Below, one piece after another: positions 3,296 to 50,370 of a stretch of 64,000 nt of DNA; positions within the stretch are counted from its first letter, which is position 1; each line of letters begins with the position of its first letter. Under the pieces are notes generated by a model. It was not told the origin of the DNA, ran no database searches, and worked only from the letters and a program-made list of their open reading frames with translations. A program made the position numbers and the translations under genes. Source of the stretch: Meghimatium bilineatum (Eukaryota; Mollusca; Gastropoda; Stylommatophora; Philomycidae); contig CM067311.1 in NCBI GenBank assembly GCA_034231615.1, positions 13,332,310 through 13,396,309 on the forward strand. The letters are read 5' to 3'.

Positions 3296-3481
3296 ACAAA
3301 GAGACAAGAATAAAACCGGCTTTATACCTGCTCATGAACTACGCACTGTTGTGAATTCAGTGTTGAAAATCAATATGTCTGACAAACAGTTTGATGAAAT
3401 GATTCAACAACTTAACGAAAAGTCGAACAATGGAAAACCACAGATCAATTATGGTTCATTCTTAGATTTATTCAAAACAGA
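3296..3481 (+). CDS. EF-hand gene, first visible exon
   Basis: The acceptor is a pyrimidine-rich tract ending TTTTTACAG and the donor is GTGAGT. The exon starts with one base completing a codon and ends with two bases of the next. It holds a canonical EF loop with Asp1, Asn3, Thr5, Gly6, Ile8 and Glu12, followed by a second helix-loop region ending in a YGSFLDLFKT-type helix. Confidence 0.85.
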
Positions 3482-6400
3482 GTGAGTTTTCAGTAAATAA
3501 AAAAAAACATTATCATTTTTAGTTTACGGAAGTCAAATTCAACAAGGGTGACAGTGGTGACAGCCCTGGTTTTAAGTAATAAAATCAGCAATTTTCAAGT
3601 GTGTCACAATCAACATTATTTTAAGTGATGGTGGTGCAGGAGCCAGAGCTTGTCCAGGGCTACTAAATACATATATTTCAAAGCTGTTGGTTTATATGTA
3701 TAATTATGAGAAATACAAATGACACACTCTTTAACTTTTTCATGACATAATTATTTCTGGGGTGTGGACGTAATTAATTTTTAGACTAAATTTTTGGAGC
3801 ACAACATGATTTAGGTACAAGCTTCCTGAAGACAAAGTATTAGCTATGGAAGGTCATATAAGGTATCAAAGGAAAGATAATTGAATGTGGAATCCATACA
3901 CCATATATAAATATAGAAATTGTAACAATAAAATACAAAAATTACACCACAAACAGGGATGTTAGATGAGCAGAAACATTTTGACACTCACTTTTTTCTA
4001 CGCACCTTCAATTTTACTTGTCTTAAAATGCTGCTATCCAATCTTACTAAAGTAGAAGCATAGATTGTCCATTCCCTGATCATAATTAATTTATTTGAAA
4101 TAAATCTATCAACTGCCTAGTGTTTTATGCTATTTTTATGTTTCATATCAAATTTCAGACTGAACAAAATATTGTGAAAATTTATGAAATTTTCCCAAGT
4201 ATTGAATTTCCAAAGTTGAACTTTATTCTACTCAATATTATGGTTAGGCATAACTCTGTTTTTTGTATAATAAATACTTTCAAATTCAATCTGTATAACA
4301 GTGCTACCACTTCAGGAAATTTCCAAAAAGGGGTCAGAAATTTGTTATAATTTTTAATCAATTTGAAGGTTAAAATTTGTTTGTTTTTTGTTAAAAAATG
4401 TCTGTATGGCTTTCTCACACATCTCATATCACACACTCACAAACAAAACGTACACCTATATATGCAGAATTCAATTCGTTATTAATATTCTTTACAAATA
4501 TTATTTAAATATCTCTAACAACAAAAAAGTTATCACATTTTCAAAACAGCAACCAACTATTACACAACATTTTCAAAAAATAATCCAGCTGCAGAAGAGA
4601 ATATTACATAATTGTAATCTAGCATGCTTAAGGTTAAAATAAATATGTCACATACGTCTAATAACACAGTACCATGAGGGTTTCATTTCGTTAGCCAGAT
4701 TCTAAAGTTTAAACAGCTAAATAACTTAATACTAATTGATTTACAATCGAAGCAAAGAAAATTTAGATAGCATATCTGCAAGAAAAGAATGAATAATCAT
4801 GGCTACATCCGCAATGGATGTCTATCTGCAATGATATATCATCTTTACTGGTAGAAAGAGTTTAATGAAAATGTCACAATGATTTAAAAATGCTTTAAAA
4901 AATATTTAAAGTTTATTATATAGGCAAAGCAAACATTCTTAATGTGTAAATATTGTGTTAATTGAACTTATATATTCATTACAGAATAAAATTTGCAGGG
5001 ATTAAAAACACTTTTTTAAATATAGACCCCTACATTATTTTACTTTAAAAAAAATCTTTATATTATTGTACATATTTTGAAATTTGTCTATTCAAAGTTG
5101 TTTAAATAAATCTTTATCCTGATAGTCCTGGACAGTGGAACAAACGTAAAGATGGTCTCTTTGTTGGTCAGAAATACCAGCTGAAGGAAATAACTCCAGC
5201 AGTTCCTGTTGTGCGTTTGTTTGAGAAATCAAAGACTTGGATGGTTCTCGCATCTGAAAAAGATACTAAAACAATTAATAGAGTGGCAGAGGTGAGTGTA
5301 CATCGCATTAGAATACACTTCATTTTCATGATGACAAGAAGGTGATATCTGAACATCTTTGAATACTCATTGCTTCACTGAAGATTATTTAATAACTTTA
5401 TCTCCTGAGAGCTGATAAAATACCACTTAATACCAGTTGCCCTGAGTTATTCTAATTTTATTAAAATCTCAAGAGTGGTATATCTATTATTTTTCCAGAG
5501 AATAACAGAATTTTCTGTTATTTACGGGAAAATGTGTCCACACTCACATGACATGTTTTACAAAATAAACTACGAGCTCGTTAACCTTTAGGACGCATGC
5601 TGCAAAATTAGTCACTGACATTTCCCCTAATTTGGTTAGCGAGCGGAAAGTATAGTTGCCACCATAGACTACCGTTGCTAGGCACACTTCATTAAATTAA
5701 AATCCCCAATTTTTTATATTTTTTCACAAGATCTGTTAAATCTGGCATTTTATTAAATTTACTACTTTTCCCAGCAGTTTTAGTGGCAACCATGTGCCTA
5801 AAATCATGTAAATATCGATATTTTTGCAATATATTGACAATTTCTTACAAAACCATCGCCATGACAGTGAATTTAGTTTTATAGACTGTTATTTTATAGA
5901 ATTATCATTAAAATAATTATGGATTGGGATTCAAATGATTATTTATGGAGAGATAAGTTATTTCCTCATTAGAAAATCAGTTACACCACGCTGCTTTATC
6001 TAAATTGATATTAAAACATCAACCAAGTTCAAACGATACATTTACAGACTATATCTAGGTTTATAGAAGGATTTTAAGACATACCTGTAGATTTAATCCT
6101 TGTAATCCATGAAATTATAATGATTATCCATTGAATGGCACACGATTTAGGTCTATGCAAAAGTGTTTCAACTCCAGAAAATTTACAAATAATGTAATAA
6201 ACTTCATACAAACATATTATCATTCTAAAGATCAAAATTTGCTGGGGTTTTGTGGAAAATCGTCTTTAAGACTGTCCTACATGTCTCATATCACACACAA
6301 ACAAAACCTACACCAATATATACAGAATTAAATTCTTTATTTATATGTGCAAAAAGTATTTAAATATCTCTAACAACAAAAAAGTTATCATGATTTCAAA

Positions 6401-9400
6401 ACAGCATTCAACTATTACATAACATTTCCAAAACTTAATTCAGCGGCAGGAGAGAAATTACGTAATTGTAAATACAGAGTGCTAAAGGTTAAAAACATGT
6501 AGCCTATTTATATTATGGAACTGAGTAAGGGTACATGTGCTTTTGTCAGAAAGACTATGGCTGTCAAGAGTTACCTGCTCACAGTTAAAGGTATTATATC
6601 ATCATCATTAAGAGTAGAATGGAAGAAGGGAGAGATTTTAGTTTAATTGGTGGAGCACAAGAAGACAGCCCGAAATATCAATCTGGAAATGAAAGTTATG
6701 TCTAAATGTTTAATTAATTCCATCTGAAACTACTCATATGAGTTTAAAACTGATGTCTTTGGACGAACAAACTAGTATAAGTTCCTTCCTTTTTTTAAAT
6801 GTAATCATTTTTGGTATTTATATGAACATAATGATGGTTTCGATTGAAAGTGTAATATATCCACATTACTTCTGTCATGATTTTGATGTGTTATGATATC
6901 AATTTTGTCAGTTATTTATAAGTTTTGAACATGTGTGGAATGTGACTTCATTTTCTCTTATATTTTCTATATATATTTTGAGTGCACTTATGTTTTGTGA
7001 TAGTATAACAATTTTACCGGTACTTACTTTGGTCTTATTAATTATTGAAATCCAACCTGATAATTACTGGCAATATAACTAAGCCCTTGGTGTTGCAGAT
7101 TTTTGCCATTTTGTAAGAAAAATGTCACAAAAATGTTGGTTGAAGTTGCAGATACTAACAATGATATCGCAAGATCACCAGTATGAGCCCATAGACTGCT
7201 GAAATTTGCTACCAAAAAATCCAACCAACAAAAGAAAGAACAAGAAATTGTTGCCACAATAAATGTAGCAAACAAGTGACTTCACAATATTTTCACAATT
7301 TCTAATTTGAAGTTTTTCAGATGTATGAAAATATATAGGCCTATGGCATAATGTGTTTCTTTGTTAGCATTTACTCTTGGAATCTTGCTGGATCTCTCTT
7401 GTAGCACAACAATGGTCCTCCTAGATTTCCAGCAGGATATAGTTCTGAGAAGAGAGATGTGTTGTTTCATTTTATTTGTGCCAAATTTCATCAAACCAGC
7501 AGATATTTGTTATAGAAAAGCTAAAGAAGGAGGATATGATTTCTAGCAAAAGATATTGTCCCAAAGCATCATGGACTATGTTACTGAAAGACACAGGGTG
7601 AGTTGCAGAAAATGTCAACACATTCAAATCATATTAAGTTTTTACAAAATTATGCAGAATATGTAACATGATGATGATTACGATCAAGATATGATTGTTA
7701 TATCTGCTATTATTTTTCTATTGAATTTAGATAAGGAAAGAGCTCAATAAACTTTTCACAGACCGTTTTCATGCATTTGATAAGGTATGTAACTTAATTT
7801 TCATGCATTTGATAAGGTATGTAACTTAATTTTCATGCATTTGATAAGGTATGTAACTTAATTTACTGGTACTATTTTAAGTTTTGACCTGGTAAAATAA
7901 GTTTTATTAAGATTACTATTGTTTTATTTGCAAAACTTTTAGCACGTGTTAGGTTTACAGATTAATTCTACACATTTCCTATAGAGCAGTGGTTCTCAAC
8001 CTTCCTAATGCCAAGACCCTTTAATACAGTTCTTTATGTTGTGGTGACCCCCTACTATAAAATAATTTTTGTTGCTTCTTCACAATAGGCCTATGTGTTT
8101 TCCAATAATCTTGGGCTACCCCTGTGAAAGGATCATTCGACCTCCAAAAGGGTCGTGATCCACAAGTTGAGAACCACTGTTATAGAGCATAAGACGAATG
8201 TGTATGTAGGAAATAAAATAATGATGCTTGCAGGTCCACAATAATAACAATCTAAAATAGTAAATTGATAAGAACTAGCATGGTTTTTTTTACTTATAAG
8301 CTGACATGATTCCTTATCAAAAACAATCTTGCAGGGAACAATTAATTAAAGGGAGAAACAAGCAATGGAAGACAATTAAAATCATGGATAGACAACATTA
8401 AAGAATGGGCCAGTCATTATTATTTATCCACATCAGCATCACTTACCAACTTTCATCATTATTTCTTCACCCAAAGATTGAGATAGAAATCAAAAGACTG
8501 ATAATATCTACAATTTTTATACCAACACTGTGCTACCAATGTCAAACACTGTCTTTAACAGTCTTACAGCAGAGGAAAATCATTACATGTGAAATGAAGT
8601 GTCTGAGAAAATCTGTAATGTTTACTAAACTAGATAAAATAAAAAATGAAGAAATTAGGAAAAGAGATGGGATAATATTATGTATTGAACGTATTGAAAG
8701 AAAGTAAAATGGTTCGGTCACCTTATGAGAATGAACCCAAACACATACCAATAAGAGTGTATAACAAAAGAATATCTAAACATAAAGCCAAAGGATGACC
8801 AACCAAGAAAATGATGAATAGAAAACATCAAGATAACCTTGAACAAACATGGACTTAATGCAGCCAAGGCAAAAGATGGAACAGCCTTGGAACAACAACT
8901 GAAGCTCCCACCCCTACGCTTAATGACAAGTATGGATACTATCAGTCATCATTCATCTGGTGACAGACAATAGACAATCAGCATTACTGAAGATAGTAAT
9001 TATTGTAGGACTTCATGTATATAGGCCTATGCATATAACTTAACTATAATCTAGTCTATTATCTAGGCCCTATATCTATTTCTCCTACTGAAGGTGGATG
9101 TGTCAGGCCATTGGCTCAAATAAAATGGCGACAACGCATTTCCATTCTCTGGACTACATCCTGCTGGAAATCTAGTAGGACAATGGTCCTGCTACAGGAG
9201 AGATCCAGTGGGTGTTTGAGAATGAACGCTGAAGAAGAAGAAGATATCTATTTTTCATAGCTACATTTACTTGGAATTTCATCTCTTTCATCATCAGAAT
9301 TTTCAAGACATGGATAGGAAGAGAACTGGATACATGGGAAAATGGCAGTTTGGAGCTCTTATTAAGCTGTGAGTTTGATGCTCTCTAAAAATGTAGGCTA

Positions 9401-12400
9401 TTTTCTAATTTTGTAAAATTTTGAGTTTCACCTAGATCAGATTTGAGTAACCTCTGGTCTAAGATCCAGAACCAACTCTGCAAGCAATGTTGACAGGATA
9501 CCTATGAAGATTAAAAGTTTCAATATAGTCCTATTCTGAATGGAAAAGGATAATGTAGTTTTGGTAATCATTATTAAACAATACAAGGTAGTACTGCAGT
9601 GAAACAGAACAGCATGCATGTCACTGCTAAAGTAAATAATAACACACACATATTGACATTTTGAGCAATTTATGTTGACCACATTTATGAAGAAGACAAC
9701 ATAAGACAAGACCAGTAAGAAATACCACTGTCCATATTCACATTTTGTATCATGTCTAGCTATTAACTCATAGTGGACTAAATGACAACCTATTTGTTGT
9801 TTACCCTATGTGCTGTTTTTTTTCTCTGGTCCACTAATAAATATGTAATCATAGACTGTGTCATTTGATACTCATTTTGTGTTATACTGTGTTCTTTATA
9901 AAGACCTTTATTTGGTTAAAACATTAATATTTGTATATTATTATGTACTTTACCAGTGATTAGCAAAACTTCATTACTCTTTTCCATGTTTCACTTAATT
10001 GATTATAGTTTTGCAGCAGCTATTACATATTATATATATTAATGATTCTTATTCTTCTGTCATTTCTTTGAGAGGTGCATAGATCATAAAAAACTTCTTA
10101 AATAACTTATACTGGGCATTTCTTTTCAATGTCACCCTTCTTCCATTATTTATTCTGTAGCTCTTCTCATATTTCTTAACCTGATAGTTTTCTTGTTCCT
10201 TGAGGATTTCATAACAGTGAAATACTAGTCATGATGTTTCATAGTGTGCTCATATCTATCACTACTTATTTCTTAAGATTTGCAAATTTTAAGCCATGCC
10301 GTCATATGGACTGAATGACAACTATGATAATGTATTATTGTCAATGGTAACTACATATCTATTCGCTAAACCCTTAGTTGCCTTTCAGAATCAGGGGTAT
10401 AAGAGTTTTTTTGGAGATGATCCTCATGTGTGCTGAGTATAATGTGGAATTTGTCACCTCTTTTATTTCCATGATCCATCATTTTTGTGGTCAGCCTCTA
10501 GGTCTGCCTTCACTATATCTGTGTAGCATAGCTTGCTGTGGTAGGCTGTCTGATGGTAGTCTGCTAATGTGTGCAAACCATTTAATCTGTTGTCTCTTAA
10601 TATATTCCAAGATTGGGGTGGTTCTGGTTTTTTGTGGAATGTTCTCATTCCTCACTCTGTTTCTTAGCAATATTCCTAGGATTCTGCGTAACCATCCATT
10701 TCAACTGTCACTATATATAACGATATAACTAACAAATAGTAAAATCAATGTCAATGAAAAATAACAAAAAACATAGGAACAAGAACTTTTTCTACATTAC
10801 AGTCCAATAAGGACCTTTATCAAGAAACAAAAACAAACTAGAAATAAACATATAAAGCTATCAATGCAAAGAGATGATCTCACTTCATCTCATTATATTA
10901 GAAAATAAAAAAAGGTGCAATCATGTCCATTTATAAGCAACAGTGGTGCTCGCCTGAACTTTACACACCATTGATAGATATAAATATAAATCATGAATGT
11001 AAGAGGAATGCCAAAAGAGAAAGAATCATGAGTGTCAAACCCGACCAAGTGAATGTTTCACATCAATGATACCAATTATACACTCAAACATTTATAAACA
11101 TGCCAAATAGTTTGCTTATGTAAGAGCACACAAAGACATATATGGAGATGGGGGCCACCAACAAAGAACATCAAAAATTTGGGGGGATTGGGAGGGGGTC
11201 AGTAGTTGATAAGGGAAATTGATTCTTGGTTTAACAAAAATTGATGAAAAATATGGACTGTATGGTCAAAATTGGCCAACATAAATACCACAAAATGTTT
11301 ATAAAAATATATGTGATTGGATGTCTCCATACAAAATAGTGAAACATACCTTTTACTTACATACATAAAAACCCTTCGAGTAGGATACTACTTCTTAAAG
11401 CTTTGTATGACACTGAGAGTTGGGAGTCTTCTGTGTATAAAAAAAAAAGCTCTGGAAAAACATAGCATAGGAAACAAGAGCTTCCTGGGATCAAAACAAA
11501 CAAATTCTTAAGACATATTTTGCTTGAGTGTTCACTTTTCTCCCCCACAGATATGTGTTTTTAATATGGTAAAATTGCTGCATGCATTGGATTCTACATA
11601 GACTTCTGAAAATACTTATAAAATATGATCTTTTAATATTTTTTTGGTCATCCACATCTCCAACCCAAAAAATGATTTCACATTGAAAATAAAGATCCTT
11701 AACTTAATATTCACTGTTGCCACTTTTGAATGTCATGTTTCAATATGCTAAATACTCCTACTTTGTTAAAAAAATAATTTTTCAGCCTTCATCAGTGCTT
11801 CTTACTTTGTATCATAATTTGTAAAAATTCCATATGCAATTCTCCAATGCAATTAACTTTGTATATTTCCATACCGTACACATTCACATTCACAATTTTT
11901 GTCAACCATATCCACAATGTGAATGGAAGTAGAGGTAGCTACTGCTACCCTCAATGGCTCTCTGAAACTATATTTATTAAGGCAGTTATTGTGTCAAACT
12001 GTCAGTCTATCTTTGAAAGATGCAAAATGGATGTATGTTTTGCGTTCACTCCATTGTAATCAGAACTGATATTCTCGTGTGATTTCTGCCGGGAGCGTAG
12101 TTACGTTGTGCCACCATTATCAAAAAGGATGATAACAATATAAGTGGCTGGCATCTATAAATACTTTTGATCTCCATGGCATACAGATATATGTAATAAT
12201 TAGAGAACAGACAGATTGGCATCCAATAGGCTGGGAATTGACAATGGATTATGGGAGGGGGGCATTAGCTGCATATAGATAAAGGTAATAATGAAACATT
12301 GAAGCTGAGATTAAGATAATTTGATATTGAATATGGAATCAATACAACTGCAGCCAGAATAGAGCAGAATATTTGCAGCCAGAATAGAGCTTGTTAGTGA

Positions 12401-15400
12401 TCTACTAGCTCATAGTCAAGGACACAACTCTGAATTTCAAAGATGGATGTAAAATGGTTATTACCACTTGTGATGGACAAAGAAAATAAGTGCTCAAGAT
12501 CACTTTTTTACACTTGCATGGCTTGAGCACGTCCTATGAGAACATGAAGGTGCTCACAAGAACCAGATTGAGAATGCCTGTTCTAGATTATCAAACAGAT
12601 ACAGAATCAACTTGATGCCATTTTTATTATTTACTGTTATTTCCCTCAATAATTCCAATTATTTACATTTTTATTATTTACTGCTATTTCCCTCAATAAT
12701 TCCAATTATTTACATTTTTATTATTTACTGTTATTTCCCTCAATAATTCCAATTATTTACATTTTTATTATTTACTGCTATTTCCCTCAATAATTCCAAT
12801 TATTTACATTTTTATTATTTACTGCTATTTCCCTCAATAATTCCAATTATTTACATTTTTATTATTTACTGCTATTTCCCTCAATAATTCCAATTATTTA
12901 CATTTTTATTATTTACTGCTATTTCCCTCAATAATTCCAATTATTTACATTTTTATTATTTACTGCTATTTCCCTCAATAATTCCAATCCAGGCTCTGAG
13001 TAAAATAAAATAATTTTTTACAAAAATCACTGTGCTTTATTTCTTTTTATATTTGTCAACTTCGTTTGTTTCATCTGTGATGAAAACATTTATGTGTTTA
13101 AAGAATGCAATCCAAAATTTAATGCAATTTTCATGTCTTATCATTAAAAGGTCAATTATAAAATATTCATTATTTTGTATGTTACAATTTTACTTTTATG
13201 TTTCTAGAAAATTTTATTTTTATGGTTTCTAGAAAATTTTATTTTTATGGTTTCTAGATGTGGAATCACCTTAAGCATTAATGACCTTGATCACTTGTGG
13301 TCAAGTTTAGATGTCGCAGCAGACAATACACTCAGTTATGCAACACTGGTAAAGGCTTTCTGTTCAGGACAGAAACATTCCACAGCAGGTAATTAATGCA
13401 CCCTGTTATGTCTTTCAAAGCAAGTAGTACTTTGCTAGAACTGGGTATCAATATACAATGTAATAGTGTATGTATGTAATTAGAGAGGTTCAAATACTGT
13501 TTCACAAATGGGCACAGTAAGTATGATAGTTTGAGAAAACAATGGTTCTCACACATAGCAGTGGATTAACATGTTTCATTATGAACCCCACCCTGACATT
13601 TTTCAGCAATCTATATGTTCATGTTAATGTTCACTTGCAACTTTCCAGTCCATGTGATGTAGTCTTATTTATTTTAGTTCTCTCTAAAACATAAGAACTG
13701 GCTGCTACTGTCACTCCTACAATATTTGTACTGAACCGTCTTCTTAAATTGTGCAGACAAAGTCTCAGTTAATCTGTTATCTCCTATTGTTCTTGACACT
13801 GTATTTTTTTGCCTTTATATTTGTCTCTTTCCCTGTTTGTTTTAATCGAGTTATATTGTGAAGTCTCTTTGTGAAGGTGTTTCCTAATTAGATGCTCTTT
13901 CAGTTATCGAATAAGCTCTTATGATCTTAAATTTCAGTCATAAGCAAATGGAAAAACTGGAGGGAATGCAGAACAAGGTAATGCACATCATACTTGGATG
14001 CACTAACAGCACATCGTTCATAGTCATGGACAACCTCCTTGATTTTCCAACCATGAAAGATAGAACAAGGGTCTACCGAGCATGTGCTTTTATTTGAGTT
14101 AGTGCAAATAACATATTATGTCCACTTGTTGACATAGATCCTGGTGCAGAATTGGAGAAAGTGCCATCAGAAGTATGAAATGCCTTTTCAGTACACATCA
14201 GACTCGACAGTGTGTGTCAGCCATAGAACCGTTTGGTTATGGAATTAGATGTTCAGGCTTTGATTGATGAGAATCCACCTGAGAGAGACAGTAATTTATA
14301 CAGATGGTTCTATTGTTCAGAATGTGCGCAGCTCATGACACAGGTTGGAAAGAGAATTGTGAGTTAAGACAACAGTGCATTTGCTATGACTACAAGTAGC
14401 ATGACCACAGAGATCATGGCGGTAACCAGGGCATTGTCGAGGTTAGTCTCAGACCTCTGAGAAATGTGTATGGTTTCTTTAAAAAAACTCAATGAGTATG
14501 CTCAAAAAGATTGAGAATGACTGGATACAAAGACATTGGTTGAAGTCTGTGAAGCAGTTTAATCTGACAAGAATGAATTTCATGTTTGTGTCTGGACACG
14601 CCGGTGTCTGAGGAAATGAACGCACAGACAAGCTTGCTGGCATGGTAATCATGGGATACGGACAAGTAATGTACTGAGCTGATGTTCTGAATGCTCTTAG
14701 AGAGATAGAATGAGTGACTGTTTAACAAATACTTATGAATCTGCAACCCTGAGCAGACTACAGGAACACTAAGTCAAGAGAGGCATGACTAAACAAGAGC
14801 ATTATACTGATAGCCAGAGGAGACTGGTAAACCAACGCAGAGTAGCTGTGGTAAGTCACTACACACTGAGGGATATCTTGAGGAGGAGATCCAAACACTT
14901 ATGGACTGAGAAATAACAGTAGGCTTGATATGCAGTGAGGATGATCTTTTGGCTAACTTCCTAACGATAAATTTTCAATCTTTGATCCTCATCTCCACCA
15001 GGTCTGGTATGTTCTCTTCCATAGATCATCTTTATATATATCTTTATATATTTTATATATATACTTTATATTATATTCTTTATATATATATATATATATA
15101 TATAGTATTTAAGGGCAAAAATGATGAGAAGAATTTAATAATTATAGTTATTGTTTTGTGATTAACTCTTTAGTTCTGATAAGCCTCTAAAACTGCTACT
15201 TATACTTATTCACTGTGCCAGTAAGAGGATAAAAACTATTTTTATAGAGACTTCTTAGATGCAAAGGGTTTTGCATTGTTCCTGTGTGATTCTAAGGGCT
15301 AGCAAACAACCAAGATCCAAACAGATATACACGGATCATGTGGTGTGTCTGGCTGACACTTTTAGTGATCATGTTCAGGCCTGTGGAGGCTATTTTTGGA

Positions 15401-27400: not shown

Positions 27401-29415
27401 AAATGGTGGCACCAAAGCTAAACCTATGCAGTTCAGTTTCCAAACATGTAATCTTGAATAAATTCATTCATTCATTAGGTGCCATGCTGGCTGGTGTAGG
27501 CGGTCATGTCTCTCCACAACTCTCTGTCTCCAGTATTATGCATCACAATCATTGTTGTTTGTCATGCCAGGTTGTTAAACTGTCTAATTTTGAGGAAAAC
27601 TAAGGAACAATAACTCTATCACACACTTACTATAAGTGCATGATAGGAAATAAACATGGATGATTGTTGTCCATGACTAAAAATGGCTACCTCGATGTAG
27701 GCATTTATCAACGTCGGATGTCTATCACTAGATGACATTTGTTGACTACGGGTTGCTACAGGTTAACTCTTAGCATACATGGTTTAAAATTACCATTTTA
27801 TGAGCAAATATGACAGAAAGAGCAAAAAGAGATTATGAGTAGACATATTGTACAATTAATTTAAAATCTACACCTATCTATTGGGCGTGTGGTATACTAG
27901 GAGTCAATGCCTCCTTATGGTGAGACACTCCACTTTCAACCACAGATATGGGCCTATTGGTTATAACAAAGACACTTAACTGTTCAAAAATATTTCAGGT
28001 CAAAGTTCAGGTTATCATTTTTCAAAACCTGCCAGAAAGTATTATTCATTTGATTGTTAATTTAATGTGTACCTATTATAGTAAGATACACTTCTGTCAA
28101 CTGTGAACACATATCAAATTTTGGTAATATCAGAGGTGTGACCAATAAGAAATAATGGAGGTCATAGAAACCACAAACTCCAAAGAATAACTTTAAAATA
28201 ACTTAATCTGATGAAAATGAGTTTAAAATTGCTGTAGATAATAAGTACATGGATGTGAAGCATGGACAGTAAACAAAAATGTCCAAGATAAGCTGGAGGC
28301 AACTGAGATATGGTTTTAAAAAGTTATGAAAATTCCATGGACAGCCAAGAAAACTAATGTAGAAGTTCTTAGAGATGCTGGAATAAAATGACAAATTATA
28401 GTGAAAATTAGAAGCAGGCAGTCAAGATTTTTAGAACATGTGATGAGAAAAACAAAACTTGAACAATTAGTAATCACTGGAAAGATCAAGGGGAGAAGAG
28501 ACAGGAAGACAGAGAGAAATTTCTGGATGGGTTGTCACTGTTGTCACTGTAACACAAAAAGAAGTCACCAACTGAACTTAACAACATAAGAGACAGAGAA
28601 TTGTGGAGAAGCATGATTGCCTACACCACTCGGCATGGCACTTGATTGATTGAGATAATAGTAATCGAGTGCTTACTATTAAATATACCAATCGTACTTA
28701 CGTATTACACAGGTTAATAATCGCTTCAATCAGACACGACAGACTATATCTAAAACTAGTGGGAAATGATGTGCACACAAGAAAACATACAAATTACAAT
28801 ATACAAATCATATTCAATGTTTCAACCAAAAGGTCTTTATCAAGATACACGCAAAACATCAAAAGACGACGAATGGAAAAATTATCACAACAAACAAACG
28901 TATCCAACGGACATATGGAAATGAGATGGCGGAATTGAGACCTTTTGGTTGAAACGTTGAATATGATTTGTATATTGTAATTTGTATGTTCTCTTGTGTG
29001 CGCATCATTTCCCACTAGTTTTAGATATAGTCTGTCGTGTCTGATTGAAGCGATTATTAACCTGTGTAATACGTAAGTATGATTGTTGTTACGTTTCACG
29101 CAGTTACCTTATATTGATTGTCGTATTAAATATACCAAGCATTTACATAAATATGCCTTAATTTATATAAGTAACCTAATTCATCTGCTTTCACTGCAGC
29201 TTTTAAAGAAATTCAAAACTCTGAGAGGATCCTTCAAATTCTTTGACCATAACCACAATGGCTTCATTGAGGAGGGTGAACTGAGAAAGTCACTAACTTC
29301 CCTTGGCTATGCACTGTCCAATCAAGATTTTCTGGATGTTTTACAATTGTTTGACAGAAGCCAAGGCCAGAGGTTATCTTTTGATGATTTTAAGGCTACT
29401 TTGTTAACAGTGTAA
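3296..29415 (+). CDS. Multi-EF-hand protein, EFCAB6-like, C-terminal ten exons (5' end not seen)
   Basis: Ten exons join in consistent phase: 3296-3481, 5126-5291, 7731-7784, 9298-9368, 13258-13388, 17280-17434, 21828-21914, 22258-22446, 26900-26959 and 29200-29415 (TAA). All introns have GT/AG ends, mostly GTGAGT, GTAAGT or GTATGT donors. They encode about 437 residues with seven EF-hand-like loops. Two are canonical (DKNKTGFIPAHE in the first exon, DHNHNGFIEEGE in the last); five lack key ligands. The first exon begins one base into the final position of a codon and at an EF loop, so the incoming helix and the N-terminus lie upstream, probably outside the window. Large proteins with many decayed EF-hands in pairs resemble EFCAB6, a protein of about 1500 residues linked to testis and cilia in vertebrates. 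That name is an inference from architecture; another multi-EF-hand family is possible. An ATTAAA at 29481 may serve as the polyA signal. Confidence 0.85.
3731..4637. mobile_element. TTAA-flanked element, copy 1
   Basis: Its right-hand ~250 bases match 6262-6492 closely, including the run ATTTAAATATCTCTAACAAC and the final AAGGTTAA. The left edge is set only by a TTAA at 3731. It lies in the first visible intron of the EF-hand gene. Confidence 0.45.
5126..5291 (+). CDS. EF-hand gene, exon 2 in window
   Basis: Acceptor GATAG and donor GTGAGT. The first base completes the split Asp codon from the previous exon, and the remaining 55 codons are open. It encodes a non-EF linker rich in Lys and aromatic residues (GQWNKRKDGLFVGQKY). 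Confidence 0.8.
5581..6492. mobile_element. TTAA-flanked, piggyBac-like non-autonomous element, copy 2
   Basis: It begins TTAACCTTTAGGAC and ends GTGCTAAAGGTTAA, so the termini are CCTTTAG inverted repeats inside a TTAA duplication, the piggyBac signature. It is 912 bases long with no usable ORF. It lies in the intron after exon 2 of the EF-hand gene. Confidence 0.55.
6785..7075. repeat. Dispersed AT-rich repeat, copy 1
   Basis: Aligns with 31325-31605 over about 280 bases (shared GGTATTTATAT.AA.ATAATGATG, then AATCCAACCTG-type end). No coding capacity was seen; the element type is unknown. Confidence 0.5.
7358..7520 (-). mobile_element. SINE family 1, diverged copy
   Basis: Shares the core CCTCCTAGATTTCCAGCAGG and CTTGCTGGATCTCTCTTGTA with copies at 9095, 27003 and 43593. 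Reverse orientation relative to those ending in AAG repeats. Confidence 0.6.
7731..7784 (+). CDS. EF-hand gene, exon 3 in window (18-codon microexon)
   Basis: This 54-base exon, phase 0 at both ends, lies between acceptor TTGAATTTAG and donor GTATGT and encodes IRKELNKLFTDRFHAFDK, the entering helix of the next EF-hand. The last 17 exon bases and the donor are part of a 32-bp tandem triplication. Confidence 0.8.
7768..7863 (+). repeat. 32-bp triplication covering exon 3 end and donor
   Basis: The unit TTTTCATGCATTTGATAAGG plus TATGTAACTTAA occurs three times in tandem without mismatch. It copies the exon 3 end and its GTATGT donor, giving candidate donors at 7785, 7817 and 7849. Confidence 0.97.
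7987..8179. mobile_element. SPIN-like hAT MITE
   Basis: The 193-bp element has terminal inverted repeats starting CAGTGGTTCTCAAC and an 8-bp flanking duplication (CTATAGAG left, TTATAGAG right, one mismatch), as expected for hAT. The internal order, including TTTAATACAGTT, TGTTGTGGTGACCCC, TGTGTTTTCC and GACCTCCAAAAGGGTCGTGA, matches my memory of the SPIN non-autonomous consensus, with an internal deletion. It is non-coding and would have been moved by a hAT transposase in trans. It lies in an intron of the EF-hand gene. Confidence 0.88.
8340..8975 (+). mobile_element. RTE-type LINE 3' region
   Basis: Frames read SWIDNIKEWA, IFIPTLCYQCQTLSLT, EMKCLRKS and IKNEEIRKRDGI, and near the end QQLKLPPLR and SSGDRQ. 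The order (YGxExW-like, MxCLRR, xIRxRxGI, GHxxRM) is the standard C-terminal tail of RTE-like LINE polyproteins. It is frameshifted and dead. Confidence 0.65.
9095..9243 (+). mobile_element. SINE family 1 copy with AAG tail
   Basis: Runs from CTGAAGGTGGATGTGTCAGG to GAACGCTGAAGAAGAAGAAG. It contains the shared block CTGGACTACATCCTGCTGGA. The tail is a short AAG repeat. It sits ~55 bases upstream of EF-hand exon 4. Confidence 0.75.
9298..9368 (+). CDS. EF-hand gene, exon 4 in window
   Basis: The acceptor is CATCATCAG and the donor GTGAGT. It encodes an EF loop, MDRKRTGYMGKWQF, with Lys at loop position 3 and Gln at position 12, so calcium binding is doubtful. It ends with two bases of a Leu codon that the next exon completes. 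Confidence 0.82.
10390..10700 (-). mobile_element. LINE 3'-end fragment
   Basis: The minus strand reads RQQxxWFAHISRLPSDSLPQ-like sequence and then GRPxGRPQK, the RxxKWxGHxxR...RGRPxxR signature of LINE tails, with stops and frameshifts. Confidence 0.5.
10707..10960. mobile_element. Penelope-like/foldback family fragment
   Basis: Contains the family motif (reverse strand CTTGATAAAGGTCC with TTATTGGAC) also found near 28840, 30885, 38310 and 54040. The boundaries were not resolved. Confidence 0.4.
11000..12600. other. Intronic stretch without recognised features
   Basis: AT-rich intron DNA between EF-hand exons 4 and 5. Short ORFs here have no recognisable motifs. A possible hAT end (TGAGAATGCCTG) near 12570 is too weak to call. 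Confidence 0.5.
12619..12987. repeat. 47-bp minisatellite, ~7.9 copies
   Basis: The unit CATTTTTATTATTTACTGCT followed by ATTTCCCTCAATAATTCC and AATTATTTA is repeated with only a TGTTA/TGCTA variant. It lies about 270 bases upstream of EF-hand exon 5. Confidence 0.97.
13200..13257 (+). repeat. 25-bp tandem repeat carrying three splice-acceptor copies
   Basis: TTTCTAGAAAATTTTATTTT plus TATGG occurs twice and a third TTTCTAG follows, giving acceptor-like AG ends at 13207, 13232 and 13257. The last keeps phase with exon 4. Confidence 0.93.
13258..13388 (+). CDS. EF-hand gene, exon 5 in window
   Basis: The acceptor TTTCTAG is the last of three identical tandem acceptors; the donor is GTAATT. 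It encodes CGITLSINDLDHLWSSLDV and onward: the exit helix and a decayed second EF loop (DVAADNTLSYAT). It ends one base into a codon. Confidence 0.82.
13925..14930 (+). mobile_element. LINE (RNase H-bearing, family A), post-RT to 3' end
   Basis: Frames read LEGMQNKVMHIILGCTNSTS (post-RT helix), VIYTDGSIVQ (RNase H first Asp), TTEIMAVTRALS (catalytic Glu region), SMLKKIENDW and SGHAGV.GNERTDKLAG. This is the RNase H domain of an I-like LINE, broken by frameshifts and stops. It is followed by the tail LRDILRRRSKHLWT. It lies in the intron after exon 5 of the EF-hand gene. Confidence 0.75.
15030..15105. repeat. TA-rich microsatellite
   Basis: ATAT/TTTATATAT run in intronic DNA. Confidence 0.85.
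15290..16900. repeat. Unrecognised repetitive segment
   Basis: It is more GC-rich than its surroundings and has internal direct similarity: 16057-16152 resembles 16389-16490 (GGCACA.TA...CAA.GAAG.TGTCTTTCT), and GGGTATGAAAGAAAG occurs near 15820 and 16562. No long ORF or known domain. It may be an unknown transposon or a decayed low-copy satellite. Confidence 0.4.
17280..17434 (+). CDS. EF-hand gene, exon 6 in window (linker)
   Basis: Acceptor TATGTTCAG and donor GTATGT. The phase matches the preceding exon (a Glu codon is split). It encodes a low-complexity linker rich in Lys, Ala, Ser and Pro, ending in a charged helix (DRRLTELLKKVEYD). Confidence 0.78.
17510..17880 (+). mobile_element. 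RTE-type LINE fragment
   Basis: Frames read FKLEDITNFQYLGTNINSAG (the post-RT YLG block), then AVYGCEAWT-like GCEAWTLNKTTAKRIAALEM. Typical of LINE RT C-terminal thumb and tail, starting ~75 bases after EF-hand exon 6. Confidence 0.7.
18263..18690. mobile_element. Foldback element with ~96-bp arms around a LINE tail
   Basis: 18263-18358 is inverted at 18594-18690 (shared GTACAAGTAGACxCCACCA, TTATTTCCCTTGT, ATGTTCATC). Inside is a smaller hairpin made of TTAGGGTTAGG / CCTAACCCAAACCCTAA and, at 18390-18490, a family A LINE tail (RSEHIWTCPVC). Confidence 0.8.
18876..18940. repeat. 13-bp minisatellite, 5 copies
   Basis: GAATAACAAGTGT repeated without mismatch until the last unit. Confidence 0.95.
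19075..19400 (-). mobile_element. LINE (family C) 3' end
   Basis: The minus strand reads CGAVTQTPKHILQDCQ-like sequence: the CxxCG...HxLxxC zinc motif at the C-terminus of RNase H LINEs. It is probably continuous with 20045-20300, separated by later insertions. Confidence 0.55.
19895..20041. repeat. Dispersed hairpin repeat, copy 1 of 2
   Basis: GATGACATGCC at 19909 pairs with GGCATGTCATC at 19955. The following block CCATTGGTGAGACCCACAGA is shared with 21330-21477. Confidence 0.75.
20045..20300 (-). mobile_element. LINE (family C) RNase H C-terminal piece
   Basis: The minus strand reads GFPDNEKANELAK, the final RNase H motif (GxxGNExAD.LA), then EGNLSQTRILQDIKE and WRTKWKL, as in family C tails. 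Confidence 0.55.
20330..20740 (+). mobile_element. RTE-type LINE 3' end
   Basis: Frames read TTCEMKCLRKAARAAKLDKM, then QQIKWFGHLMRN and finally ALNRQLKLP and HPLGDRQ, the tail of the same LINE group as 8340-8975 and 23580-24310. Confidence 0.7.
20740..21300 (-). other. Unrecognised, possibly transposon-derived segment
   Basis: The minus strand has overlapping open stretches (75 and 87 codons) without recognisable motifs, bounded by a LINE tail on one side and the hairpin repeat on the other. Probably the decayed body of a mobile element. Confidence 0.3.
21330..21477. repeat. Dispersed hairpin repeat, copy 2 of 2
   Basis: Near-identical to 19895-20041: hairpin ends at 21344 and 21390, then the same GAGACCCACAGATGCAAC tail. 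It is in the same intron and orientation as copy 1. Confidence 0.75.
21828..21914 (+). CDS. EF-hand gene, exon 7 in window
   Basis: Acceptor CAATTCAG and donor GTATGT, 29 codons, phase 0 at both ends. The loop DRDGYSSISVQD follows a hydrophobic helix (WDILYSIFLNL). Position 6 is Ser rather than Gly and position 12 is Asp. Confidence 0.83.
22258..22446 (+). CDS. EF-hand gene, exon 8 in window
   Basis: Acceptor GTGCTTACAG and donor GTAAGT, 63 open codons, phase 0. It holds an EF-like loop (DIHRNGWFNYLS) lacking the acidic residue at position 12. A Pro/Ser-containing tail follows. Confidence 0.83.
23130..23560 (-). mobile_element. LINE (family C) 3' end
   Basis: The minus strand reads GLCHCSLANMTAEHILQECP then YADLRNKIWPTPISIEEKL, homologous to the end of the 44277-44888 ORF. 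The 3' non-coding part (CTCCTTCGCAAGCGAAGATG region) resembles 25780-25915. Confidence 0.72.
23580..24310 (+). mobile_element. RTE-type LINE 3' region
   Basis: Frames include NMQINIQKTETMQITR (the motif following YADD in RTs), CEIKCLRKAIGVIRLGKMCS, ENIRKVIGITSCIKYIEKQW and, near the end, HLGIDN. Several frameshifts are present. Confidence 0.7.
24640..25740. other. GC-richer unrecognised segment with a tandem pair
   Basis: A ~120-base block is repeated at about 24710-24815 and 24826-24915 (TGCCTGAGC.CATC..GTAC.GAACCCTTTCTCT, then TATTTCCGG). Base composition differs from the surrounding AT-rich intron. Short overlapping ORFs show no motif I recognise. It may be an imported mobile element of unknown class. 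Confidence 0.4.
25780..25915 (-). mobile_element. LINE (family C) 3' non-coding fragment
   Basis: Aligns with 23145-23330 (GATGATGT.CCTC.TTTGCAAG, then TTTGTTTGTGAATTCTCAGATGGC). Only the 3' part remains. Confidence 0.45.
26264..26447. repeat. 46-bp minisatellite, 4 copies
   Basis: GAAGAAAGATGAAAACAGCA with TGACCAACAGGCAAGCTAAAG and AGCAA, four near-perfect units about 450 bases before EF-hand exon 9. Confidence 0.95.
26450..26815 (+). mobile_element. LINE 3'-end fragment
   Basis: Frames read GRTSVSEIIDSKNKRQWKDI and then LIAEGRVNGNRGRELPRQRW followed by CSDISDCLNKSLA, the RGRxRxRWxxDI tail signature. It ends ~85 bases before EF-hand exon 9. Confidence 0.6.
26900..26959 (+). CDS. EF-hand gene, exon 9 in window (20 codons)
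   Basis: Acceptor TTTTTTTAATTTAG and donor GTAAGT, phase 0. It encodes AGPTSMAVTVYDFLAELKGT. The short length makes it less certain alone, but both splice sites and the phase fit its neighbours. Confidence 0.7.
27003..27155 (+). mobile_element. SINE family 1 copy
   Basis: CTGAAGACGGATATTTCGGG through CTGGACTACATCCTGCTGGA to GAACGCTGAATAAG. It starts 43 bases after EF-hand exon 9 and is close to the copy at 9095. Confidence 0.75.
27243..27335 (-). mobile_element. SINE family 1 partial copy, inverted
   Basis: Matches the first half of 27003-27155 in reverse orientation (CCATTTTCTGGACTACATAC-type to CTGAAGATGGATGTG). The two form an inverted pair 90 bases apart. Confidence 0.65.
27440..27545 (-). 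mobile_element. LINE 3'-end scrap
   Basis: GCCATGCTGGCTGGTGTAGG and TCATGTCTCTCCACA match 54950-54985, the last codons and end of an RTE-type LINE. Confidence 0.45.
28205..28655 (+). mobile_element. RTE-type LINE 3' end
   Basis: Frames read AWTVNKNVQDKLEATEIWF, KVMKIPWTAKKTNVEVLRDA, SRQSRFLEHVMRKTKLEQLV and TGKIKGRRDRKTER. The same family as 37610-39855 and 54950-55380. Confidence 0.78.
28691..29123. mobile_element. Foldback insertion with perfect 14-bp target duplication
   Basis: Arms 28691-28836 and 28938-29082 are inverted copies; a ~40-base single-copy tail (29083-29123) follows the right arm. TATTAAATATACCA flanks both sides (28677-28690, 29124-29137). The insertion is in the last intron of the EF-hand gene, ending ~60 bases before the terminal exon. 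Its arms carry the motif CTTGATAAAGACC...GGTTGAAAC. A Penelope-like origin is inferred. Confidence 0.85.
29200..29415 (+). CDS. EF-hand gene, terminal exon
   Basis: Acceptor TTTCACTGCAG, 71 codons and a TAA stop. It holds a canonical EF loop (DHNHNGFIEEGE), then a degenerate one (DRSQGQRLSFDD), with clear flanking helices. It is the best-conserved part of the gene in this window. Confidence 0.9.
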   Translation, partial: LLKKFKTLRGSFKFFDHNHNGFIEEGELRKSLTSLGYALSNQDFLDVLQLFDRSQGQRLSFDDFKATLLTV

Positions 29416-41289: not shown

Positions 41290-42480
41290 TCTCCTGAAAA
41301 TGGGCATCAACATTGACAGGGAGCAGACTATAAAATATCTAGGCATCACTTTTGATAGAAGTCTATCATTCGCGAAACATGTGGACAATATCATTCAGAA
41401 ATCTGGGAAGGGCATCTGCAGAGATACTGAAGCAAACCCTTTTCAGATGCAGGCAGTGGTATTATCTGTGTTGGCCTATGGTTTAGGTTTATTGACGCTG
41501 TCGCAAACATAGGTGGATAGATTGGAGAGAGTTCAAAATGAGGCCATGAGATCTGTCCTAGGATGCCCAAGAGATACACCTATCGTGGCCATGAGGTTTC
41601 TCCTAGACCTACCTAGCATCAAATCAAGACATAAAATAGCCCTGGTTAAAGAATACTTCAGTCGCCAGTAATGATCATCACGTCTTACACCAATCTCTAG
41701 ACAGCACAAAAGAAAAGCGAATCAAGAGAGGAAGGTCCTGGATGGCAGAAGCAGAAGATACTCTACTCAGAGTTTGTGAGCTGGAGGAAGTAGGAAGAGG
41801 CTGTGAATGGGTGACATTTGGCAATGAGAGAAAATTATTGACAACAGTGGTGACACAGATGGGAAGAGAGTGCTGCGACTGGGCTGCCAACAGAACAGAG
41901 GAAATGATCCAAGAAGAACTCATACTACAGCCACATGATACAATTATAATTTACACATACGGCTCAATTATGCAAGAAACAAACAGGTGTGGTTGGGGTT
42001 TTGTGGCCTACCAAAATGGCAAGAAATTAGCTGAGAAGTCAGCTGCATACCCCACTACAACATCGAGTATGAGAATGGAAATAGAAGCGGTGACAGCAGC
42101 TCTCTCTTGGCTGGCTACGCAACCACCAACAGACTCAGTTATTCTATTGGACTCTCAAAGTATGCTGCGCAAGATAGAAAAGTGTATGATCAGAAATGAA
42201 TGTGTCCCTCTTCTTGACAATGCGCAGAGCATTACATGGATTTATTGTCCTGGTCACGCTGGGGTCAAGGGAAACGAAAGAGGGAGATTATCTACATTAC
42301 CATCATGATAATGTTTTGGACGTTTAGAGAAAAAGGAAGACCCAAAATTACCCTAAAAAGCACCATACTTTGAAGAAGGAGAAATAATAGGCTGCAAAAC
42401 CATATAAGAACTAAAAGTACAGGCAGCAGACTGCAAGGCATGGAGAATAAAAACTGTGCCTCCTGTGACACGAAAGAAAC
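41290..42480 (+). mobile_element. LINE (family A) post-RT and RNase H region
   Basis: Frames read QTIKYLGITFDRSLSFAKHV, RVQNEAMRSVLGCPRDTPIV and then a 188-codon ORF with an RNase H fold (WGFVAYQNGKKLAEKSAAYP, SSMRMEIEAVTAALSWLATQ, YCPGHAGVKGNER). The first catalytic Asp motif is YTYGS instead of YTDGS and the last Asp is lost, so RNase H would be inactive. It lies head-to-head with the family B RT. Confidence 0.85.
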
Positions 42481-44276: not shown

Positions 44277-44888
44277 TCAGGTTACAGCACCAATAGCTTC
44301 AATGAATTGTGTGATTCGCTTCAGGTCATCCATGGAACCCCTCAAGTCTGGAAGCAGTGCCGTCTCAGTAGGCCATATTTTCTCCCTCTCTTCTTGGTAG
44401 AGTTGACAGGCATGAAGAATGTGTTCTGCAGTCTCTGGGCTCAGTCCACAGTTGCACAGGTCTGTCTCACCAATCTTCAGCTTTCGGAACATGTGACTTC
44501 TCAGTCTGTTGTGACCAGTTCGTAGTCTGAAAATGATGGTTTGTTTCTTGTGTGACATTTGGTGGTAGGGGTCATTTGGTTCTGCAGTTGGGTGCATTTG
44601 CTTCCACTTTTTCTTATATTCTGCTTTTAACATGGTCTTACTTTCATAGTATGTATTATCATTTTCTATTTGTTCCAGTGATCCCCCTTTCCTTGCCAGG
44701 AGATCAGCTTTTTCATTTCCAGGTATGCCACAGTGACCTGGGATCCACTGCAGTACTGTTTCTTTGGTGGTACTGCTGAGATGTAGTAAGCAGGCTGTAA
44801 GTTCATTCATGCTCGTGTTCTTTGGATCTTTCAATGCCTGCAATACTGATTTTGCATCCGTTAGAAATACTCCATGTAAAGAAAACAT
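44277..44888 (-). mobile_element. LINE (family C) RNase H and zinc tail, 203 open codons
   Basis: LTDAKSVLQAL (catalytic Asp), WIPGHCGIPGNEKADLLARK (His and final Asp), RLRTGHNRLRSHMFRKLKIG and CNCGLSPETAEHILHACQLY (Cys/His zinc motif). The ORF ends with a TAA-terminated EAIGAVT. It is intact over this portion, so it may be the youngest LINE remnant here; the RT lies beyond 44888 but was not recognised. Confidence 0.85.
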
Positions 44889-45717
44889 TAAGTGTAATAT
44901 TCACATCACACAAGGCCAGAGTTGATTAAATGATTGCTAAATGGCAGCAGAATTGAATGTTTGAAATTACATACAATAGTACAGTAACAGTTGAAGTATC
45001 TTATACAATTTTAGACATTCTGAATTTAACCCTCTCATGGCCAGCTCAGCATCTATTAATTCATTCCCAGCCAGATTGTAAATATCAGATGTCGACATAG
45101 CAATTGAAATTATTTTTTCTTGACTGTTTACGTGTGAATAGACATGATAAAGTTTGCCCGTATATGACTAGCTGTAATGGCAGTTCAAATAACAGTCTTC
45201 TGATTCTAATATCAGAAGATCATATGTAACATCTGTGGTTTTCGAGCTCTGAATTGTTTATCATGGCTGAATGGACCTACTTATGATGATGATGAGGTTG
45301 ATAGAAATTTTTAATGGAATTTTAGAGAACGAGAATGAATTAGATATTTATGATGAATTATTTCAGGACTTGGGAGTTGAAAGTCGTGACGATCTGTAGT
45401 GTAGACCTAATTAATGATATGAAACCCACTCTCTGCCCCACCCTAGACCTAGTAATGTTAGCATATAGTCAAACAGGTGAGCTATGGCATTAGAAATCAA
45501 GACATGCAAATGATATTGATCCAGATTACTCTGCTTTTAATTAGGCATATCTTCCTCTATTTCTATGTGAGTCATTCTTTGAGGTGCTGTGCAGAACAAA
45601 CCAATGTGTATACTGGTATCAAAATTTTAGAAAAACAAGATCCTTCTTGGAAAACTGTTTCGCCTAATAATAAAATGTAATACTGCTAGTAAAACTGTAA
45701 AAAAATAGTAATCTCAT

Positions 45718-47593: not shown

Positions 47594-50370
47594 CTATTTG
47601 ACGGGTATATTTTTAGATGCTAAATCTGCTGTCCTTGAAATGGCATGATCTAAGTTCAATGTTTTCCCCTTGCCTTTATTACTTATAGTCTCTGGGCTTA
47701 TACTCACAACTAGACGTCTAGGTGAGCTGCTACAATCTTCACTAGTTGCACTATCATCTGTGTCTACATCCCATTTTTCAACCTTAATGGGCAAGGTGTA
47801 TTTGACAGCCACATTTTGTTCTGTGTTATTTGAATCGACAGGTTCTGTTTTTATATAATCAGACCTAGGAGAGGAATGCATGGAACTGTCAACTGTAATT
47901 CTTTTATTTGGTACTTTGGAATTTCGACTTCTGTTGCTAACAACATCACTATGGCCAATATCATACATTTTTGTAACTGGCTGAAGAATTATAGTGACTG
48001 GTGTAGAAGTAGTATAGTTACTAACAACAGATGAAAAGGTTGATACTTGAGGGGAAGAATTTCTGGAAGTTACGTTGTTTAAGGCTGATACTTCTGCAAG
48101 TTTGCTATTGGTGAGGTTTAGAGCACATTGAGTTTTAGATGTGTTCTGGGAGTTATTTACTGCAGTTTGTCCCGATTTTGAGGACATGACAAGTTTTGGA
48201 CTTGCTAACGGAGTTTTAGATGTATCAGGAAGGCTTGTGCTGGTGGGTTCTGTGACTGAAACTAATGTGTAAGGCTTAGAAAGGAAATTTGCCATTATAT
48301 GGGATGGTACAAGTTCTCGAACCATCTGTGTACGCTCCTTGACTAAACCTCCAGAACCAGTCCACTTGTACCCACATTGAATCTCATCAGACGGCTGTAC
48401 AATTAAACCATCCTCTGATTTTACAACTTTCTCTTGTTTGACTACACTTGAGGCTGAAGTAAATGCTTGTACTTGTGGGGATCTTTTCCCTTCTCTATCA
48501 GTTTTGTAGTTTAATGCACTGGCTGACAAATGAGCTTGGAGATCAGAATCTATTTGTTTGTTACTCACAACAGCACATCCAAGATGAGATTTTTTATGTC
48601 CTAGAAATTCAGCAACTGTTCTCATCCTCACTAAATCTTCATGACTGCTCTTACCTGTACTGATCTGTGCTAACTTCTGGGGCAAGTCAGAGGAGGCAGT
48701 CACATTAGGTGATTTCTGTACAAATAATGGAATGTTAGCAGTTGTCTGAAATTTAGGTTTAGATAAGTCAATAGCTCCATGGTCAATGTTGGAATTCATC
48801 TCAATTTTATTTGGTCTTCCTAATGAAGCTGATATTGACTGTTTATTACCCAACGTTGCAAGATTCCTTAGTGAATAGGGTGTAGCAGAGTTTGACTGTG
48901 GTTGGTCTTGCTTCTGAGAGGGTGAAGAATGTGCTGACATTGCTTCTTGCATAGCTCTTGTAAGCATTAATGGATCCAACTTATGATCGGCACTGCTGTT
49001 CACACTTGTACCTGGTTCTTTTCCTCGAACTCCATTAATCAGAAATTCGTTTTCTAAAGCATTGTTGAATAACTGCAGAGGATTATTTTTAGAATCACAA
49101 GTTTTTAAAACTGCTGCTCTTGTCTTGACTTTAGGACATAAAGTGTTAGGAATGGAACAAGAAATATAATCTGAATTATGGCTGTTTGTTGGCGTCTCTT
49201 TCATTGCTGTTTCTATACTGACTGTTGAAAGGAGATTAAGGTTTCCCAGCTGAAAATTGTTCTCAGATGCTGTTGAACGTTTAGAGACTGCAGTAGCATT
49301 ACACATATTTTCATATGTCCCATTGCAACTGTGATCTTTTTTGGCTGTAACTATTGTACTTTTTCTGGGTTTTTTCTCTGGACCACTTGCTTCTATCAGT
49401 TCTGACTCAATTGGTGGTGATTGAGATTTTGAAGATACAATGGCTGCCTCATTATGTTTTTCTATGACTATGTGGGAGGATGAAGAAATAGTGTAACTTC
49501 CAGCAATAGCTGCAGCCTCTAATAATGTCTGCATAGGAGAGAGATCACTTAAAGTTCTTTTGACACCATATCTTTTTTCTGCCTTATGTTCTGTTTGTTT
49601 CTTATGAAGTAACTTATATCTTTTTTCTGCCTCATTTTCTGTTTGTTCCTTTTGAAATAATGATCTTTTTTCTGCCTCATTTTCTGTTTGTTCCTTTTGA
49701 AATAATGATCTTTTTTCTGCCTCATTTTCTGTTTGTTCTTTTTGAAATAATGATCTTTTTTCTGCCTCATTTTCTGTTTGTTCCTTTTGAAATAATGATC
49801 TTTTTTCTGCCTCATTTTCTGTCTGCTCCTTATGAAATAATTTTCTTTCTGCCTCATTTTCTGAATGTTCCTTATAAATGAATGAATTTTTTTCTACCCC
49901 ATGTTCCATTTGTTCATTATGAAATAACTTTGAACTTTTATGTCCAACCAATTTTTTATTTTCACTTATGTCAGTTTTGCAATCGACTGCATTATGTCCT
50001 TGATGTTGTACAAATGTATCTCTACTATGTGATGAAATGATGTTATCAAAATATTTCAGCAATAATCTTAATGATGTTTCAGATAAACGAACAGGTTTCT
50101 TTCTATGTAGGACTGATGACAACATTGTTCTGCGGACTAACATTTTGGGTAAATTTGAAGAGCCGGTGTGATTTCTCAGTAGATTCTGTTTTCTAATTTG
50201 TTTGTACCCAGAGCCTGTAAGTGCTTCATGTCTCTGAAAGTGGTTCATGAGATTTGCTTCTGTTGAAAATTTCTTCTTACAATGATGACATATATTTCTG
50301 TTTCTCTGTTTGACTTTTGTTATCTTATTAGTCAGTTTTCTGGTTACTTCTTTATTAAGAGTCTTTCCAT
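47594..50370 (-). CDS. Zinc-finger gene, exon 4 (finger, repeats, C-terminus)
   Basis: The acceptor is AATTTATCTTTCAG. The first two bases complete an Asp codon and 924 codons follow. The C2H2 finger (CHHCKKKFSTEANLMNHFQRH with a Lys/Arg-rich lead-in) lies at 50290-50228. The 45-bp tandem repeat occupies about 49931-49566. SUMO-type motifs cluster in the last third. A candidate AATAAA polyA signal (minus strand) lies at 47068-47063. Confidence 0.9.

Follow-up and report, generated by a model that had tools for sequence, protein, structure and literature searches.

A SPIN-type non-autonomous hAT element in a predicted intron of a land slug, very probably of horizontal origin

The genome of Meghimatium bilineatum contains, in the 64-kb stretch of contig CM067311.1 which we have analysed as a whole (the window), a short element with inverted ends and a flanking duplication. 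Its sequence recalls SPIN, a group of transposons known from tetrapods. The question is whether this element really belongs to SPIN and, if so, how such a sequence has reached a land gastropod. The features of the locus are collected in Table 1.

Table 1. Features of the locus, in positions of the window
Feature	Position	Strand	Remarks
Predicted exon, EF-hand gene	3296..3481	+	
Predicted intron containing the element	3482..13257	+	donor GTGAGT at 3482; acceptor TTTCTAG ending at 13257; frame continues across
Left target-site duplication	7979..7986	.	CTATAGAG
Non-autonomous SPIN-type hAT element (MITE)	7987..8179	+	193 bp
Left terminal inverted repeat	7987..8000	+	14 bp, CAGTGGTTCTCAAC, exact
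6-bp insertion with respect to the family consensus	8086..8091	+	at the junction where longer copies hold a central block
Right terminal inverted repeat	8166..8179	-	CAGTGGTTCTCAAC in opposite orientation, exact
Right target-site duplication	8180..8187	.	TTATAGAG, 7/8 identical to CTATAGAG
Predicted next exon, same EF-hand gene	13258..13389	+	

A sequence-only reading of the window had described here an element of 193 bp with inverted ends and an 8-bp duplication matching at seven positions. We find the same: the terminal repeats are exact over 14 bp and the flanks CTATAGAG and TTATAGAG differ at a single base. The chance of such flanks being identical at seven or more of eight positions is about 4 in 10,000 (our arithmetic, with even base use). 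A search of the window for CAGTGGTTCTCAAC with up to two mismatches gave three matches; the mean for shuffled sequences was 0.54, and three matches were also obtained in 3 of 100 shuffles. Taken alone this number of matches is weak evidence for inverted ends; the repeats are credible because two exact copies in opposite orientation are accompanied by a flanking duplication. No second copy of the element was found within the 64-kb window.

The same reading placed the element in a probable mollusc intron, which is borne out as a prediction by the splice signals, the continuity of the frame, the score of the EF-hand peptide and a neighbouring gene of gastropod type. The peptide joined from the two exons in Table 1 scores 26.8 bits with Pfam EF-hand_11 (cut-off 21.7) and 29.1 bits with EF-hand_7, just under its cut-off of 30; scanned separately, both exons are under the Pfam EF-hand cut-offs. 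An additional EF-hand stretch is found at about 29212-29394 (EF-hand_7, 44.9 bits). The EF-hand gene would therefore hold the element in a predicted intron of 9.8 kb, in which small unseen exons may also be present. The neighbouring gene is of C2H2 type and has its exons on the minus strand, between 58697 and 47597. The best of the nine relatives found is that of Arion vulgaris, in which the matched stretches are 47 to 81% identical; Bradybaena comes second, and Lymnaea, Physella and Bulinus are lower, with three other proteins in between. The host thus appears to be a stylommatophoran-like gastropod.

The window has other repetitive sequences. In the predicted intron of the element there is a 47-bp array at 12619-12988, with 7.9 copies which are 99% alike, and a 25-bp tandem repeat at 13186-13258, which ends within one base of the predicted splice acceptor; because this repeat reaches the acceptor, the sequence TTTCTAG is found three times in tandem. 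The C2H2-type gene has eight 45-bp units in its coding sequence (49570-49927, minus strand), which give a 15-residue repeat; by eye, its Arion relative has about one such unit. RNase H fragments (Pfam RNase_H), presumably from non-LTR retroelements, are present at 41640-42308 (+) and 44277-44900 (-).

The whole genome of the slug (1,612,235,226 bases in 32 contigs) was then searched. The 31 chromosomes reported for Deroceras and Achatina (PMC12506671) are compatible with a stylommatophoran host but are no proof of it. The 193-bp element gave 901 first-look candidates, the best 40 of which were scored. The whole of its length belongs to a repeat family of the host genome, so that the hAT MITE proposed from the sequence is a real element. 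To count copies in the genome had also been suggested in that reading: a 32-base piece of the family consensus is found at 500 sites with no more than three mismatches, 242 on one strand and 258 on the other, and the reversed pattern, used as a control, at none. The 100 sites listed are spread over 24 of the 32 contigs.

The 30 best-matching copies gave a family consensus of 187 bp. Their K2P distances from it are between 0.062 and 0.137, with a mean of 0.101 (0.079 outside CpG), values which are biased since these copies were picked by their likeness to the one in the window. A second set was formed by 40 sites picked by the 32-mer, 27 of them exact and 13 with one mismatch; the exact sites are 31 in total, and the four outside this set were among loci already sampled. 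Full-length short copies occupy 27 of the 40 sites, with a mean K2P of 0.124 (0.059 to 0.170) when the positions used for picking are omitted. Two sites in this set, L058 and L059, are not independent because they lie in one duplicated stretch, about 144 kb apart on the same contig. The two versions of this stretch agree at 99.2% in the first 1.4 kb and at about 94-96% from there to about 5.6 of 6.75 kb. A peculiarity of L046 is that an inverted piece of its inner end sequence (consensus positions 16-38, opposite strand) stands in place of the left end.

The copy in the window is degraded. It has 23 substitutions in 187 positions with respect to the consensus, and its K2P of 0.137 is the joint highest among the 30 copies. 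The motif with its 6-bp insertion is found in only 2 of 75 loci, the window copy (L001) and L002. Probably this copy does nothing now. Its place within a predicted intron could suggest that it was co-opted as a regulatory element of the surrounding EF-hand gene, but it has diverged as the rest of the family has, which suggests an absence of constraint, and we give this idea a negligible probability. The family as a whole also appears to have stopped its activity: the copies differ by 6 to 17% from the consensus, and the sample contained no intact gene.

The ends of the family indicate to which group of transposons it belongs. The inverted repeat of the consensus has 16 bp, 15 of them matching. 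At the boundaries which we have used, the target duplications are alike at six or more of the eight positions in 17 of the 30 best-matching copies and below this level in the other 13; in the 27 full-length short copies of the 40-site set the corresponding numbers are 11 and 16. The left duplication has a consensus of approximately nTnTAGAn in the 30 copies. On this side T stands at position 4 in 28 of them and A at position 5 in 27; on the right the numbers are 20 and 21. In PMC11008031 the hAT superfamily is defined by target-site duplications of 8 bp together with short terminal inverted repeats, and both are found here. For TcBuster the duplication consensus is given as nnnTAnnn in PMC3499496, which assigns SPIN to the Buster family. 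The slug family shares with this group an 8-bp duplication with a central TA; it differs in that no transposase was recovered, so that it is placed by its duplication and not by its protein. We recognised no hAT transposase by eye in the open reading frame lists of eight loci, nor with Pfam in eight reading frames from three of these loci, which gave only RVT_1 and RNase_H, both from inserted retroelements. The translated element gave no candidate among proteins.

The comparison with SPIN itself is based on two sources, neither of which is a deposited SPIN entry. One is an assumed consensus of 225 bp, which we take to be that of the vertebrate SPIN type. The other is a group of short rodent fragments, unlabelled as SPIN in print, which we assume to belong to the murine SPIN/URR1 type. 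Between the slug consensus and this assumed SPIN-type consensus, 186 of 187 positions are identical; in addition, the slug form has a single gap of 38 bp.

The rodent fragments have about 20 to 35 bases, come from four loci described in papers unrelated to SPIN, and were compared by local alignment. The mouse Ate1 primers R1 and R2 (PMC2767504, also PMC2837401) match the slug consensus at 18/19 and 18/20 positions. The rat Avpr1b primers 8-F and 7-R (PMC4676835) match at 18/19 and at 20/22 with a 3-base gap. A 20-base primer for mouse Il1b (PMC10570371) gives a single short match of 16/16. The 35-base site Pqbp1 +3836, from the binding-site list of a mouse study (PMC3713010), matches at 17/17. 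For each of these six fragments, none of 2000 Markov-shuffled versions of the consensus reaches the score. However R1, 8-F, Il1b and +3836, four of the seven fragments which we have used, had been found by searching 14- or 15-base strings of the element across millions of papers; their match is therefore mostly a result of selection, which the shuffles ignore. The independent part is formed by R2, 7-R and a second site in the Pqbp1 list, +3965, which were taken as neighbours of a selected fragment in the same paper. When the fragments are compared with the window copy, 6 of 500 background windows reach the score of R2, 78 of 500 that of +3965 and none of 500 those of the other five. Ten other primers of these lists, taken as controls, behave approximately as background with the window copy; 26 of 500 background windows equal or exceed the best of them. 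R2, 8-F and Il1b score higher with the consensus than with the window copy, and R1, 7-R and +3836 score the same with both. The fragment +3965 matches neither the short consensus nor the window copy, as is expected if the site falls in the deleted block; in the assumed SPIN-type consensus it finds 27 identical positions and 2 mismatched. Since this fragment was unselected, its fit supports the assumed consensus.

Matches to rodent sequence are found in the interior of the slug consensus at 29-45, 51-69, 113-132 and 125-140, of which 113-132 is unselected. Thus terminal and inner end sequences are common to the family and to fragments from four rodent loci, whose SPIN identity is assumed and four of whose seven members were selected by strings. 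The blocks which the sequence-only reading had recognised as SPIN are in this way supported, both by the interior matches and by the assumed consensus (186/187 with the 38-bp gap). A different hAT family, for example of MER5A/Charlie type, would have only the CAGTGGTTCTCAA ends in common with SPIN; the same reading had named this outcome as the one which would contradict it. Similar ends are indeed common among many hAT families, and short end strings recur in other printed sequences; the printed sequences obtained in the search for SPIN were only primers, guide sequences and lists of binding sites. The four interior stretches and the assumed consensus leave a very low probability for such a family, as the likeness to the rodent fragments extends into the interior. 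The end motif is also present in a sequence in PMC11247941. A match to Dscaml1 (PMC8028178) corresponds to a cDNA primer and was set aside as a chance match prior to alignment.

The absence of the central block might have been peculiar to the window copy. This was rejected, as the full-length short copies at 27 of the 40 sites lack it too. At seven of the 40 sites (L035, L043, L047, L066, L068, L071 and L072, by BLAST or by eye) the sequence runs into a longer interior, although in L043 by about 17 bases only. The remainder of the set is truncated or bears other insertions; the apparent length of L063 is due to a reverse-transcriptase element inside it (Pfam RVT_1, under the cut-off). One of the long copies is L051, with about 1.63 kb and an exact target duplication CTCTATGG. 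Over 226 bases compared with the longer assumed form it has 208 identical positions, 17 mismatched and 2 gaps. The fragment Pqbp1 +3965 is found in L052 with 26 identical positions, 3 mismatched and 3 gaps, and in L051 with 19 identical and 4 mismatched; L053 has no match. Because some longer copies retain the missing block, we consider that the short form is derived by internal deletion, as judged from these alignments. The deletion derivative suggested by the earlier reading was right in kind. The long copies examined are taken as non-autonomous, since no hAT transposase was recognised in them.

L066 (3.7 kb), L075 (1.6 kb) and L051 have a common interior with an 18-bp minisatellite. The number of its units varies by copy: with a strict pattern we have counted 28 in L066, 6 in L075 and 6 in L051. 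The longer form is also dispersed, as judged from the best 40 scored of 118 candidates obtained with the interior of L051. This dispersal bears on a trivial explanation of rodent-like sequence in a mollusc assembly, namely that the assembly is contaminated by vertebrate DNA. Both forms are spread through the genome; the 32-mer has 500 sites, of which the 100 listed occupy 24 of 32 contigs; the copies vary and carry target duplications, and the window copy lies in the same 64 kb as a gastropod-type gene. Contamination is hardly credible.

We conclude with high confidence that the window element is an old, degraded non-autonomous SPIN element of the Buster group of hAT transposons, placed in a predicted stylommatophoran intron, and that its founder was horizontally transferred. 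The family very probably arrived by crossing between species. Transfer is preferred to descent because non-coding slug DNA is nearly identical to rodent DNA, and because the copies are about 10% away from their own consensus, yet this consensus is almost the assumed vertebrate form and close to the rodent fragments. Molluscs and mammals separated more than 500 million years ago. SPIN-type elements might have descended vertically from their common ancestor with their similarity kept, for which we found no support in the present analysis. The element is non-coding, its copies have mean K2P distances of 0.101 and 0.124 from their own consensus in the two sets, and a sequence without constraint could not have remained nearly identical to a rodent repeat for such a time. 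Vertical descent is thus extremely improbable.

Horizontal transfer would be the first step of a history which we propose from the general biology of hAT elements. After the founder reached the gastropod lineage, by a route and at a time which can only be surmised, the transposase of an autonomous SPIN relative would have recognised an internally deleted copy by binding to its inverted termini and inner ends. It would have excised this copy and inserted it at 8-bp targets centred on TA. Several hundred copies, or more, may have been produced in a burst, in which the short form came to outnumber the long form. As a guess, a divergence of 8 to 12% would correspond to roughly 20 to 60 million years, if 2 to 4 changes per billion sites and year are assumed for neutral sequence. 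The SPIN transfers of Rhodnius and vertebrates are placed within the past 50 million years in PMC11614815. Land gastropods may have received SPIN separately, after their split from Lymnaea and Biomphalaria, so that several lineages were struck and a long form with an expandable minisatellite was left. The closeness of the consensus to the vertebrate form, with copies only about 8 to 12% diverged, suggests such an entry, and a timing which resembles the vertebrate wave favours it; we would give it an even chance.

SPIN is reportedly present in another pulmonate, Lymnaea stagnalis, with which the likeness is by host alone. Better described are the non-autonomous SPIN (SPACE INVADERS) elements of tetrapods and Rhodnius (PMC11614815). 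The slug family resembles them in its ends, its inner ends and the central block of its long copies, as judged by the assumed consensus and the rodent fragments, and also in its 8-bp TA-centred duplications. It differs by its land gastropod host and by its main short form of 187 bp, without the 38-bp block of the assumed 225-bp consensus. In Biomphalaria glabrata a hAT element with significant identity to SPIN is present in about 1,000 copies, and no intact transposases were detected in its assembly, according to PMC5440852. It is likewise a pulmonate snail, but of fresh water and not of land; the likeness is drawn from this description. Outside animals, the element gave no match in viral contigs (two patterns), in contigs of prokaryote genomes (one pattern) or in plasmids, and in phages only two 24-base chance matches (E 0.6).

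M. bilineatum is therefore one more host of an invader which was already known, since a SPIN-like hAT had been reported from Biomphalaria (PMC5440852). In the part of the literature covered by our search we have recognised no report of SPIN in land snails or slugs, and the word SPIN is absent from the main text of the Deroceras laeve genome paper. Within that same partial search, what is added here is the land gastropod host, the copy count, the deletion series and the long form which bears a minisatellite. The passage of transposons between phyla, of which SPIN is a textbook example, is thus extended to a land gastropod. The route through trematode parasites as donors, which has been discussed for freshwater snails, would then also need to account for a terrestrial host. 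The several hundred copies which can be aligned make it possible to date the entry of the family and to compare it between snails and slugs.
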